DNA from: Bradyrhizobium sp. sBnM-33
GTDB taxonomy: Bacteria; Pseudomonadota; Alphaproteobacteria; Rhizobiales; Xanthobacteraceae
NCBI RefSeq assembly: GCF_032917945.1
Contig: NZ_CP136624.1
Location: 4,464,001-4,528,000, forward strand
Reading direction: 5' to 3'
DNA length: 64,000 bases
Of the stretch, positions 825 through 16,878 are shown piece by piece; position 1 is the stretch's first letter; each line of letters opens with the position of its first letter. Under the pieces are notes generated by a model. It saw only the letters and a list, made by a program, of their open reading frames with translations, made no database searches and had not been told where the DNA came from. The position numbers were made by a program, and so were the translations under genes.

Positions 825-1562
825 TTGCACTATTTGAGATCGATCATATTCGATACGGCGGTGGTAATTCTGACGCTTGCCGTGTCGCTGACGGTGCCGT
901 TCATGTGGCTGTTCAATGCCAGCAGCCGGACTGTGCGCGCGGTCTCGCAAGTCTGGGTCAACGGCATCATGTTTCTGATGAAGCATGTCGTAGGTCTCGA
1001 CTACACGGTGCGAGGGCGCGAGAACGTGCCCGACGGTCCCTGCGTCATTGCCTGCAATCATCAGTCGCTGTGGGAAACCGCGGCGCTCTGCGCGCTTTTC
1101 CCGGACGCCAGCATCGTCGCCAAGAAAGAGCTGCGCAAGGTGCCGTTCGTCGGCTGGTTCCTGGAGCGCTATCCGATGATTTTGGTCGATCGCTCGGCGG
1201 GCCGCCATGCGCTGCGCCAGATGGTCGATGAAGCCAGGCGAGCGGCTAGCGAGGGCCGTCAGGTCTTGCTGTTTCCGCAAGGCACCCGCCAGGCGATCGA
1301 TGAGCAGATGAGATTCCAGTCCGCAGGCATCTCGGCGCTCTACACCAACCTCGACATATCAGTCGTTCCGGCGGCGTGCAATTCCGGACTGTTCTGGGGC
1401 AAGAAGACCCTGATCATGCACTCCGGCACCATCACGCTGTCCTTCCTGCCGCCGATCGCGCCGGGCCTGCCGCGCAAGGACTTTCAGGAAAAGATGGAGC
1501 GGATGATTGCGGAGGAGGCGAGCCGGCTGCTCACGCTGAGCGAGGCGAAGGTTTCGCGCTAG
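825..1562 (+). CDS. plsC: 1-acyl-sn-glycerol-3-phosphate acyltransferase (PlsC family)
   Basis: Membrane-bound acyltransferase that would convert lysophosphatidate to phosphatidate in phospholipid synthesis. The protein has an N-terminal hydrophobic segment (roughly residues 5-30), the acyltransferase motif I in the form NHQSLWET (the family's H-x4-D/E block with Glu), and motif III as FPQGTR. Both are typical of alphaproteobacterial members. I chose TTG 825 because AAGGGGAC lies about 8 bases upstream; an ATG at 756 in the same frame would add 23 residues that look unlike the family. The stop overlaps the 3' end of the convergent TMEM175-like gene by 4 bp. The exact substrate could also be another lysolipid. 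Confidence 0.88.
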   Translation: MHYLRSIIFDTAVVILTLAVSLTVPFMWLFNASSRTVRAVSQVWVNGIMFLMKHVVGLDYTVRGRENVPDGPCVIACNHQSLWETAALCALFPDASIVAKKELRKVPFVGWFLERYPMILVDRSAGRHALRQMVDEARRAASEGRQVLLFPQGTRQAIDEQMRFQSAGISALYTNLDISVVPAACNSGLFWGKKTLIMHSGTITLSFLPPIAPGLPRKDFQEKMERMIAEEASRLLTLSEAKVSR

Positions 1563-2158
1563 CCCGCGCGACGCGCAGCAAGCCAGCCAGCAAGGGGCGC
1601 CAGAAACGCCAGGCACCAGACAAACTGCGCAACCCCCGGCGCGGCGAAGGCAGCAATGACACCAAGCACAAACACGAACACCGGAAACAGCGCCGTCACC
1701 AGCAATTGCGGATCGTGGCGGCCCCGCAGCGCCAGAACCCACAACACCGCGTTCACCGCTGCGATCGCCAGCAGGTGAAAGCCGTAGATCACCGCGATCA
1801 CACCATCGAGCCGGTAGACACCGTAGAGGCCGTTGGTCACCGGCAGCATGATGATCGACAGCAAGAAAAGCAGATTGAGAAATACCACGCCGCGCCCGCC
1901 TTCCGGCGCCACCGCCAGCCGCCGGTGATGGCTGAACCAGAACACGCCGGCGACCACGAAGCTGATCGTCAGCGCAATGACGGGCTGGGCGTAGACGCGA
2001 AGCACGTCGTGCCAATCGGGCGCTTGCGTGAAACTAGAGGCCTTTGGCAGGTCATAGGCGAGCAGCGTCATGGCAACGCCGAAGATCGTGTTGCTCAGCA
2101 TCTCCAGCCGGCGCATTTCGAACAGATGGATTTGCGGCAACTTGGCCCCTTGCATCAT
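1559..2158 (-). CDS. TMEM175/DUF1211-family putative potassium channel
   Basis: The 199-residue protein is almost entirely hydrophobic, with about six predicted membrane spans. It opens with RRLEMLSNTIFGVAMTLL, a divergent form of the RxxxFSDxxFxxAxTLL signature of TMEM175 (DUF1211) channels: the FSD aspartate is replaced by Asn (LSN). A conserved FWFSHHR block follows in the third span. Bacterial members are weakly selective potassium leak channels of the inner membrane. The missing aspartate may matter for pore packing but is common in divergent members. The gene converges on plsC with a 4-bp overlap of their 3' ends. Nothing visible suggests regulation. Confidence 0.8.
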   Translation of the reverse strand: MMQGAKLPQIHLFEMRRLEMLSNTIFGVAMTLLAYDLPKASSFTQAPDWHDVLRVYAQPVIALTISFVVAGVFWFSHHRRLAVAPEGGRGVVFLNLLFLLSIIMLPVTNGLYGVYRLDGVIAVIYGFHLLAIAAVNAVLWVLALRGRHDPQLLVTALFPVFVFVLGVIAAFAAPGVAQFVWCLAFLAPLAGWLAARRAG

Positions 2159-2259: not shown

Positions 2260-2585
2260 TGGTGCGGGCGGCCGGACTCGAACCGGCACAGAGGTCACCC
2301 TCCGAGGGATTTTCTTACCAGCTACGGCTTTCGCCGCCTCGCCAGCGTGGACATCCGCGCTGGCTCGTTTGTGGTCTGGACTATACCTTCACCATTGGTG
2401 CGTTCGCGCCTTTAGGTGCTGCCCGTCTAGTCTCTACACCTTCGCACGAACCGTGAGGTCTGGGCGCTTGGCTCGGGATTGCCATGTGAAAGGTTTCCCC
2501 GACTTTGAGCAGTTCTACAGCTTGGGTTTCCCCAAGAGCACTCAAGCGTTTAAGTCCCTTGCGTCTACCATTTCGCCACGCCCGC
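2260..2585 (-). tRNA. tRNA-Leu(UAA), interrupted by a group I intron
   Basis: Read on the minus strand, exon 1 (2585-2552, 34 nt) gives acceptor strand GCGGGCG, a D arm and the 5' half of the anticodon stem AGGGA followed by C-T-T. Exon 2 (2313-2260, 54 nt) resumes with AAAA, the other stem half TCCCT, a long class II variable arm, the T arm GTTCGAGTC, acceptor strand CGCCCGC, discriminator A and an encoded CCA. Joined, they form an 88-nt tRNA with anticodon UAA and a full cloverleaf. The interruption falls between the first and second anticodon bases, the classical position of the tRNA-Leu(UAA) group I introns known in cyanobacteria and plastids. Programs that do not model introns would miss or mis-call this gene. 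Confidence 0.93.
2314..2551 (-). ncRNA. group I self-splicing intron (238 nt) in the tRNA-Leu(UAA) anticodon loop
   Basis: The intron carries the expected core. At the 5' splice site exon ACUU and intron AA pair with UUGAGU a few bases downstream, giving a 6-bp P1 helix with the conserved U-G wobble at the splice point. A Q-like block GGCAATCCCGAGCCAAG lies at 2483-2467, an R-like block GTAGAGACTAGACGG at 2437-2423, and an S-like block AAGGTATAGTCCAGACC at 2389-2373. R and S can form P7 through ACTA/TAGT. The last intron base is G (2314), the omega-G. It has no open frame for a homing endonuclease, so it depends on self-splicing or host help. The layout resembles the small IC3 introns of bacterial tRNA genes. 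Confidence 0.9.
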
Positions 2586-2772: not shown

Positions 2773-3213
2773 ATGCCCAACTCGCTGTCCCATCGCCGGT
2801 TATTCTCGCGCAGCCTCGCGGCGCTGGCGCTGGTTGCGCTCGGCGCCGGCCTGTCCGGTTGCGCCGGGATGAGCGACACCATTTCGCCGGCCTTTGCCGA
2901 TCCCGCCAAATACGATCTCTACGATTGCAAGCAGCTCGAGCCCGAGCGCAAGAACCTCGCGGCGCGCACCGCGGAGTTGCAGGGGCTGATGACCAAGGCC
3001 GAAACCGGCGTCGCCGGTCCCGTGGTGGCGGAGCTCGCCTACCGCAACGACTACATCGCGTTGCGCGGACAATCGAAGCTGGCCGATGAAGCCTGGCAGA
3101 AAAACCGGTGCCAGGAATCGAAACCGGAAGCCAGGCCGGCGCCGGTCCCGCCATCGATCGCACCGGCTCCCGCTGCCAAGAGCCGTACGAAGGCAAGCCC
3201 GGCGGCAAATTAG
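2773..3213 (+). CDS. small lipoprotein of unknown function
   Basis: A 146-residue exported protein. The N-terminus MPNSLSHRRLFSRSLAALAL continues into a hydrophobic stretch ending in the lipobox LSGC, so it is a predicted lipoprotein anchored by the cysteine near residue 31. The mature part has a short alpha-helical middle (the DLYDCKQLEPERKNLAARTAEL region), two further cysteines, and a Pro/Ala-rich tail. I placed the start at ATG 2773, which has GAAGG upstream and puts the signal peptide at the N-terminus; an in-frame ATG at 2671 would bury it. It resembles conserved bradyrhizobial twin-type lipoproteins, but I do not recognise a function. It stands alone between the tRNA and a convergent monooxygenase gene. 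Confidence 0.82.
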   Translation: MPNSLSHRRLFSRSLAALALVALGAGLSGCAGMSDTISPAFADPAKYDLYDCKQLEPERKNLAARTAELQGLMTKAETGVAGPVVAELAYRNDYIALRGQSKLADEAWQKNRCQESKPEARPAPVPPSIAPAPAAKSRTKASPAAN

Positions 3214-16316: not shown

Positions 16317-16422
16317 CCGCCGATAGGCGGCGGTCCGGGCGCCTTTGGGGCCCGGTCCTGGGACGGGCACCGGTCGTGTCCGGTGCCGCTCGTATCCAAC
16401 TTGCTCCATGGAGGATTTGGCT
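16317..16422 (+). promoter_or_regulatory. ROSE-type RNA thermometer in the hsp20 5' leader
   Basis: Four consecutive stem-loops precede the start codon: CCGCC/GGCGG (16317-16333), CCGGGC/GCCCGG (16335-16355), GGCACCGG/CCGGTGCC (16366-16387, perfect 8 bp), and a short imperfect final hairpin in which TTGCTCC (16401-16407) pairs with the Shine-Dalgarno GGAGGA (16410-16415). The U-U/C-G-C-U element opposite the Shine-Dalgarno sequence is the hallmark of ROSE elements, which were first described for Bradyrhizobium small heat-shock genes. At normal temperature the ribosome site is masked; heat opens it. Confidence 0.85.
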
Positions 16423-16878
16423 ATGCGCACCTACGACTTTACGCCGCTTTGGCGTTCGACCATTGGCTTCGATCGCCTTTTCGACCTCGCTGAAACCGCG
16501 CAACGCATGGGCGAGGATAACTACCCTCCCTACAACATCGAACGTCTGGGCGAAGACCGCTACCAGATCTCGCTCGCGGTCGCCGGCTTCTCGACCGATG
16601 AGATTTCGGTCACCGCCGAGCAGAACACGGTGACGATCGAGGGCCGCAAGGCCGACAAGGGCCAGCGCGAATATCTCTACCAGGGCATCTCTGCGCGTCC
16701 CTTCAAGCGCCAGTTCAGCCTTGCCGATCATGTGCAGGTGAAGAGCGCGTCGTTCGAGGACGGTTTGCTGCGGATTGAGCTGTTCCGGGAGGTCCCGGAA
16801 GCGATGAAGCCACGCCGCATCGCCATCAATGGCGTGACGCCGAGCAACGTTCAGCAGATCGAGGCGAAGGCGGCCTAA
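16423..16878 (+). CDS. Hsp20 small heat-shock protein
   Basis: A 151-residue alpha-crystallin-type chaperone that binds unfolding proteins in the cytoplasm as large oligomers. The N-terminal arm MRTYDFTPLWRSTIGFDRLF is the class A form known from bradyrhizobia, the crystallin core spans about residues 35-125 (YQISLAVAGFSTDEISVTAE through SFEDGLLRIELFREVPE, with the GLLRIEL strand), and a short C-terminal extension follows. ATG 16423 is fixed by the GGAGG inside the thermometer hairpin. Control appears double: a candidate RpoH promoter and a ROSE leader. A strong terminator follows, so it is probably monocistronic. Confidence 0.94.
   Translation: MRTYDFTPLWRSTIGFDRLFDLAETAQRMGEDNYPPYNIERLGEDRYQISLAVAGFSTDEISVTAEQNTVTIEGRKADKGQREYLYQGISARPFKRQFSLADHVQVKSASFEDGLLRIELFREVPEAMKPRRIAINGVTPSNVQQIEAKAA

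Follow-up and report, generated by a model that had tools for sequence, protein, structure and literature searches.

A group I intron in tRNA-Leu(UAA) of Bradyrhizobium sp. sBnM-33 and probable intron-bearing replacement tRNAs on integrative elements

Results

The tRNA-Leu(UAA) gene of Bradyrhizobium sp. sBnM-33 is split by a group I intron. It lies in the 64,000-nucleotide stretch of contig NZ_CP136624.1 (positions 4,464,001 to 4,528,000) analysed here, which we call the window, and its presence there is confirmed. Our reading, which we consider probable, is that this is a spliced, essential tRNA gene drawn from a pool of mobile replacement tRNAs on integrative elements and that the window holds a settled replacement. 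The features are collected in Table 1; G and L numbers are our own handles for genomes and loci.

Table 1 Features of the split tRNA-Leu(UAA) gene, its intron and its neighbours (window positions)
Feature	Position	Strand	Remarks	Basis
tRNA-Leu(UAA) 5' exon	2585-2552	minus	34 nt, ends with U34	sequence, ARAGORN intron mode
ACTT part of anticodon-loop core	2555-2552	minus	within 5' exon	
Group I intron	2551-2314	minus	238 nt, terminal G at 2314	RF00028, covariation, lengths
Guide GAGU	2540..2543	minus	can pair with exon ACUU (P1, U.G at splice site)	sequence
P3, 5' strand CUGCUC	2507..2512	minus	partner GGGCAG at 2424-2419	one pair double-changed in 18/55
P4 UCGGG/CCCGA with P5 inside	2473..2502	minus	P4 invariant	one P5 pair double-changed in 14/55
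P7 GACUA (2432-2428) with UAGUC (2383-2379)	2379..2432	minus	encloses P3' and P8	
P8 CACC/GGUG	2390..2418	minus		double changes in 2/4 pairs
P9-region hairpin CGGC-GAAA-GCCG	2325..2336	minus		double changes in 2/4 pairs
tRNA-Leu(UAA) 3' exon	2313-2260	minus	54 nt, CCA encoded	sequence
AAAAT part of core	2313-2309	minus	within 3' exon	
ORF 3' of tRNA	1559..2158	minus	counterpart on 3' side of split trnL in G024 (L095 8699-9279, 81%)	
Small ORF, divergent from tRNA	2773..3213	plus	marker of native trnL locus in genus	synteny, distance table

The intron separates U34 from A35, that is, anticodon bases 1 and 2. Joining the exons without it gives an 88-nt cloverleaf with a long variable arm and a UAA anticodon. 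A preliminary description made from the letters of the window had given these coordinates, the 88-nt tRNA, the 238-nt insert and its site, all of which are correct; the strand is minus. Its identification of the insert as a group I intron in an alphaproteobacterial tRNA-Leu(UAA) is supported by sequence and structure. It had also expected automatic tRNA callers to miss the gene, and ARAGORN at default settings indeed reports no tRNA in the 64-kb window. With introns allowed, ARAGORN folds the gene with its cloverleaf intact but places the junction two bases away and reports Phe(AAA). tRNAscan-SE 2.0 was not designed to detect bacterial tRNA introns, according to the cited part of its own paper (PMC8450103).

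The start of the divergent ORF is lipoprotein-like by our own reading. A long palindrome (2206-2254) with a sub-threshold match to a microRNA model directly follows the CCA of the tRNA; it is perhaps a terminator or a repeat. The sequence 3' of the tRNA is similar in G020 and G038. The sole match in the window at the Rfam gathering level is a ROSE RNA thermometer (16335-16429, plus strand, 81.9 bits, E 7.9e-11).

The Rfam group I model RF00028 scores 46.9 bits on the intron (E 7.6e-11 in a local search, 2.9e-10 over the whole genome), and this is its only match at E<=1 in the 9,184,954-base (9.18-Mb) genome. The score lies under the 50-bit gathering score of Rfam, and a standard Rfam scan reports nothing here because of that cut-off. 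The U.G wobble at the 5' splice site in P1 and the terminal G are both present. The core pairings P3, P4, P6, P7 and P8 are found as well, P6 being counted by its P6a pairs alone.

Pairings were drawn on the window intron and then counted over 55 aligned tRNA-Leu(UAA) introns, the window copy included, picked for diversity from 83 with readable ends; they come from the genus, from alphaproteobacteria outside it and from a small number of further groups. For the named pairs, 98.3% of cells hold a standard pair, against 89.5% in shuffles, and pairing falls to 26-46% when partners are slid by 1-3 columns. Double-sided changes occur in 15 of 36 pairs (10.5 in shuffles). The covariation score is 0.271 versus 0.107, with 0 of 500 shuffles as high; structure and alignment were drawn from one family, so part of this excess is built in. 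At least one double change is seen in each of P2, P3, P5, P6a, P7, P8 and the P9 hairpin, and P4 never varies. One P7 pair changes from A-U to G-C in 4 of the 55 introns, the other four being invariant. In the guide region G9 and G11 are invariant, A10 and T12 nearly so.

Sole copy and distribution

A tRNA search of the organism's own genome gave 51 matches. All were fetched, and ARAGORN could read the anticodon of 46. UAA is absent among these 46, and the leucine anticodons CAA, UAG, CAG and GAG are present. The other five matches have low scores (49 to 31 bits), two with an anticodon that is unreadable and three without an ARAGORN call. An intronless trnL of a relative, used as query, matches both split exons in this genome and, more weakly, one other place. 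The preliminary description had named a second intact tRNA-Leu(UAA) elsewhere as evidence against its reading; none is found among the 46 matches with a readable anticodon. Splicing is therefore needed if UUA is read by the organism's own tRNA, and the window tRNA is presumably spliced in vivo.

With the intron as query, matches are found in 51 of 265 genomes of the genus Bradyrhizobium, the window's own included, several of them in part only. The intron-tRNA of G024 is that of B. lablabi CCBAU 23086 (L148), and the one of G146 is identical to its counterpart in Bradyrhizobium sp. LMTR 3 (L182). Thirty of these 51 genomes are without an intact intronless trnL-UAA and 21 have one. The intron-bearing gene is complete in 29/30 of the former versus 6/21 of the latter (Fisher p 2.3e-7, a value that ignores kinship), judged by one fixed pattern of our own applied equally to both groups; the thirtieth genome fails it through ten masked bases. 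Weak full-length matches of the intronless query in G235, G161, G151 and G176 are other leucine tRNAs.

The window intron is not unique. Among the matches listed for named bacterial genomes, 28 of 80 loci are called Leu(UAA) by ARAGORN, and these span alphaproteobacteria, other proteobacteria, acidobacteria, cyanobacteria and Eremiobacterota; other listed loci, for instance that of B. lablabi, are the same gene with a shifted junction. Bacterial tRNA introns have been listed for cyanobacteria and a few alpha- and betaproteobacteria (PMC4033280, in the part cited). Searches of open-licence papers gave no report of this intron from Bradyrhizobium, nor of bacterial elements that bring intron-bearing spare tRNAs. 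A cyanobacterial origin was considered and set aside as not interpretable: the four cyanobacterial introns sit on a branch of length 1.65 and their position is unreliable.

Several further occurrences were seen. An alphaproteobacterial MAG (L211) has a tRNA-Leu(CAA) with a group I intron. Many viral contigs carry group I cores in tRNA genes, mostly called Leu(UAA) among the matches listed; examples are L249-L368 (IMG/VR) and L495 (a 735-kb uncultured phage). The cited part of a 2014 review states that all phage introns seen up to that time interrupted protein-coding genes (PMC3984707). Two intron-tRNA copies lie on Bradyrhizobium plasmids typed as conjugative (L371, L372); by pattern the copy in ISRA435 is complete, and that in pUSDA76 is incomplete and accompanied by a truncated integrase. 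Among plasmids from outside Bradyrhizobium, 31 of 31 listed rows have a partial copy (query 13-235, the 5' exon and part of the intron), with 1,270 matching records in all. In the three regions opened (L369, L370, L373) an aac(3) resistance gene is close to this copy, and in two of them an AAA ATPase gene separates the two.

Integrative elements that split trnL-UAA

The first scan of the genus located an intron-bearing trnL 1.8 kb from half an intronless trnL in G017 and G024. Both ends of such an insertion are readable in five genomes (G017, G024, G120, G216 and G224). The native 5' half is followed by an integrase and an intron-bearing tRNA-Leu(UAA), and the native 3' half stands at the far end. 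The intronless native trnL-UAA is cut inside its anticodon loop, and ACTTAAAAT is common to both ends in all five. The intron sits exactly within this shared core: crossover core and intron site are the same. These five insertions combine a short att core, a target tRNA that is not rebuilt and an element tRNA of the same isotype. Joining the exons of the G224 spare would restore AAGGGACTTAAAATCCCT, as in the intronless genes of the genus. In G017 the 3' half lies 14.6 kb from the other end of the element; in G024, G216 and G224 the two ends are on different contigs; in G120 a distance of about 69 kb separates them, a second intron-tRNA lies in this interval, and ten bases of the first are masked.

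Cargo was typed from the proteins of five loci. Known defence types are among the cargo beside the intron-tRNA: G017 has IetA/IetS-like proteins and G024 has a type IIG restriction enzyme, and a copy with an integrase remnant in G027 stands next to a Pycsar cyclase with TIR effector, JAB and E1-E2 proteins. A 1501-aa ORF in L087 has no match in Pfam or PADLOC. In G208 and G134 an integrase with an intron-tRNA lies outside trnL-UAA; G134 (L420, L456) also has an intron gene at the native locus.

The integrase family and its targets

One element integrase, itself from an intron-bearing element, served as query. Matches were obtained in 26 of 257 genomes of the genus (E<=1e-40), 13 of 385 of the class (E<=1e-60), 18 of 397 of the order (E<=1e-80) and 5 of 398 of the phylum (E<=1e-80). 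An intron-tRNA follows in all of the genus's seven best integrases. Altogether 14 integrases are followed by an intron-bearing tRNA-Leu(UAA): these seven, five more from the class and two from the order. A split Leu(UAA)-type half lies upstream in 11 of the 14, and all 11 integrases with such a half carry the intron-bearing tRNA; among the full-length integrases classified, none has the half without the intron-tRNA.

By contrast, twenty-eight related integrases stand beside an intact tRNA called by ARAGORN as Met (17), Phe (3), Arg-ACG (3), Arg-UCU (2), Gln (2) or Trp (1), and no group I core is found in their fetched flanks of about 1.5 kb. Two elements (G026, G1233) split tRNA-Leu(CAA) and bring an intronless spare of that isotype, in which stem or loop bases are changed. 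The G1233 integrases mix with the Leu(UAA) ones in a quick integrase tree with many weak branches. The spare tRNA thus seems to change along with the target, which supports the idea that the spare replaces the broken tRNA. A further split target, tRNA-Leu(UAG) (L411), was dropped: its upstream sequence is unclear and its branch has a length of 1.98.

Six integrases with both features (L132, L147, L185, L231, L233, L241) were found through the intron pattern and are left out of the 11 of 14; they document spread, not association, and come from Phenylobacterium, Sphingobium, Caulobacterales, Acidobacteria and an unclassified proteobacterium. L404, with its intron-tRNA about 2 kb from the integrase and an odd 5' half, is among the 14 and not the 11; L377 and L380 have the intron-tRNA and lack the half. 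In L406 and L460 a tRNA-like 3' half without an ARAGORN call comes after the half, and the contig of L412 ends within its intron-tRNA. The counts leave aside truncated or target-less integrase rows (e.g. L381, L383-L385, L387-L393, L396-L399, L402, L403, L472, L473) and broken integrases beside an intron-tRNA (L394, L395, L400).

The element integrase contains the motif SLRHTYI, which may be the catalytic motif of a tyrosine recombinase. For one of two integrases tested in Pfam, PF00589 matches with E 2.7e-4, under its cut-off, and none of four tested in NCBIfam has a match.

The native locus

By synteny the window gene stands at the native trnL locus, in the same place as the intronless trnL of G009, G047, G005 and G027. 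An intron gene at this locus without an integrase is found in 22 genomes. Scars are visible in some of them. An integrase frame ends before the tRNA in G155 (translated) and G263 (aligned), the G155 frame closing with ELESLR and a stop, compared with ELETLR and a stop in the G024 element. The promoter region of the element is present at G021, G134, G155, G263 and G090, and G090 retains a decayed native 5' half. The window locus has no integrase scar and its promoter is native; no integrase lies near the gene or is found at E<=1e-40 in the genome, and the combination of att halves with an integrase is absent.

In the intron tree the window copy falls in a clade of 17 (support 100/96) made up of 14 native-locus copies and three integrase-linked ones (G123, G055, G224), the latter nested among the former. 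Other native copies are scattered among element copies. Deep branches have weak support in the intron tree and in the integrase tree. For the native flanks, a tree built from the 48 usable loci among 54 chosen, in which three genomes appear twice, requires eight changes of the intron allele at the native locus, at least seven of them forced by well-supported branches. The window belongs there to a clade of eight genomes (100/100), all with the intron. G094 and G038 have exons identical to the window's. With the intronless gene of G019 and G023, the next neighbours by flank, only 76 of 88 bases agree. The whole gene was therefore exchanged, not the intron alone. Among the intronless and split genes compared, no intronless relative has window-identical exons at the same locus. 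The preliminary description had asked whether the intron reflects vertical descent or transfer. This is answered in part: the native locus has been replaced repeatedly and elements carry the same type of gene.

A possible role as an integrase shield

By inserting into the anticodon loop of a tRNA gene an element destroys that gene, and it would then have to bring a spare immune to its own integrase. The group I intron may be such a shield, a ribozyme in the att core that hides the site in DNA and restores the sequence in RNA; we rate this idea somewhat below an even chance. For phages with spare tRNAs, the cited part of one study speculates on tandem integration into a plasmid-borne tRNA (PMC10865867), and tandem integration into the spare is a problem that an intron would solve. 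A protective role of an intron at attB has been proposed for archaea in the cited part of another (PMC3293823).

Gordonia phage Daredevil (NC_048021.1) offers a comparison. A tRNA-Lys(TTT)/(UUU) beside its integrase (L494 2379-2690) is split by a 238-nt group I-like intron and has no annotated feature. An attP-like CGGACTTTTAATCCG lies about 155 nt away, and the joined anticodon arm would match this core. The 40 bases at the 3' end match Fionnbharth-type phages at 87.5%, annotated as tRNA-Lys in many rows. The intron was found by blastn and ARAGORN; RF00028 gives no match to it at E<=0.1, and the T loop of the tRNA is unusual by our reading. In the cited part of PMC10865867 Daredevil is described as not rebuilding its target, as lacking a tRNA of its own and as forming clear plaques; its target is tRNA-Lys-TTT in the text and tRNA-Ile2-CAT in a figure legend. 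From its sequence Daredevil is a possible convergent, independent case. In addition, an IMG/VR contig (L265) carries a tRNA-Lys(CTT) with a 211-nt intron; an integrase-like ORF, recognised by motif only, lies on the other strand and ends about 240 nt from the intron core.

Against a shield stand the intronless spares of the two Leu(CAA)-splitting elements. The spare tRNAs tabled in the cited part of PMC10865867 are annotated and, as annotated, presumably intronless, which also counts against it, as do the missing RF00028 match, the unusual T loop and the clear plaques of Daredevil. Further trnL halves at intron and intronless loci are few, too few for a count of immunity. If the shield is real, a settled intron such as that of the window would make the host tRNA locus immune to that element family.

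Discussion

The observations fit the following course of events. Integrative elements would carry a pool of intron-bearing tRNA-Leu(UAA) genes as replacement tRNAs. The element integrase would recombine at the core in the anticodon loop of the ordinary gene and split it, and the element-borne copy would take over. If integrase and cargo were then lost, or if exons recombined, the replacement would stay at the native locus. Its transcript would be spliced by its own intron through guanosine attack at U34 and ligation to A35, after which UUA could be read. In the window we most likely see such a settled replacement, now inherited within its eight-genome group. For its own lineage the direction was probably from element to host, and the intron may bring a benefit; elements could also have picked up the host gene, since element copies are nested among native ones in the window's clade.

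That nesting also suits an account which we consider unlikely, in which an old intron pre-dates the group, was lost in most lineages and was later captured from hosts by elements, so that the window holds an ordinary inherited tRNA intron. All members of the eight-genome clade have the intron at the native locus, with a native promoter where examined, as this account expects. It is opposed by the repeated, largely forced changes at the locus, by the integrase and element-promoter scars in other native copies and by the tRNA bodies of the nearest intronless neighbours, which differ from the window's in a way that precise intron loss would not give. Group I introns are able to move horizontally, and the same anticodon loop is occupied in cyanobacteria and alphaproteobacteria, so reverse splicing or homing into the native tRNA with no element involved deserves mention. 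We regard it as very improbable: at 238 nt the intron is too short for the usual homing endonuclease, and intron insertion would keep the exons, whereas about 12 of their 88 positions are different in the intronless gene of the neighbours. The Rfam score below cut-off is what might point to a pseudogene, with UUA read in some other way. This we find scarcely credible given the lack of another copy among those found, the covariation, the difference in preservation between genomes with and without an intronless gene and the intact cloverleaf.

The split gene and the elements have partial counterparts among known systems, each described here from the cited part of its source. The tRNA-Leu(UAA) introns of cyanobacteria and plastids occupy the same tRNA and anticodon-loop site and have a group I core (family: PMC4033280); the present intron differs in its alphaproteobacterial host and its tie to integrative elements, and a phylogenetic link between them is not reliable here. 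The alphaproteobacterial tRNA-Arg(CCU) introns (Agrobacterium, and BbgpI of Bartonella) are likewise group I introns in an unannotated tRNA gene, and BbgpI splices in vivo and in vitro; they differ in the tRNA, and the cited part of the source does not mention an element (PMC7717549). In tRNA-dependent lysogeny of actinobacteriophages a core of about 10 bp, a tRNA that is not rebuilt and a phage tRNA of the same isotype recur (PMC10865867); there the spares are annotated, whereas here elements of Bradyrhizobium and others have a group I intron across the att core. In the model for disruption of tRNA-Thr in the archaeon Caldiarchaeum, an insert that codes for a recombinase likewise separates a 5' fragment of a tRNA from a tRNA with an intron (PMC3293823). 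That case involves archaeal introns at one locus; the present one involves many genomes with group I introns, and in five of them both junctions could be read. As a tRNA intron it belongs to a class already known; what sets it apart is its probable place within a replacement-tRNA system on integrative elements.

The finding joins two known phenomena, tRNA introns and tRNA-dependent integration, and gives bacterial tRNA introns a concrete setting for their travel and a possible use. An essential tRNA, together with some element-borne spares, is invisible to default annotation. Introns or split tRNAs as guards against integration have been proposed for archaea (PMC4033280, PMC3293823, in the parts cited), and with these elements the guard idea becomes testable in bacteria.
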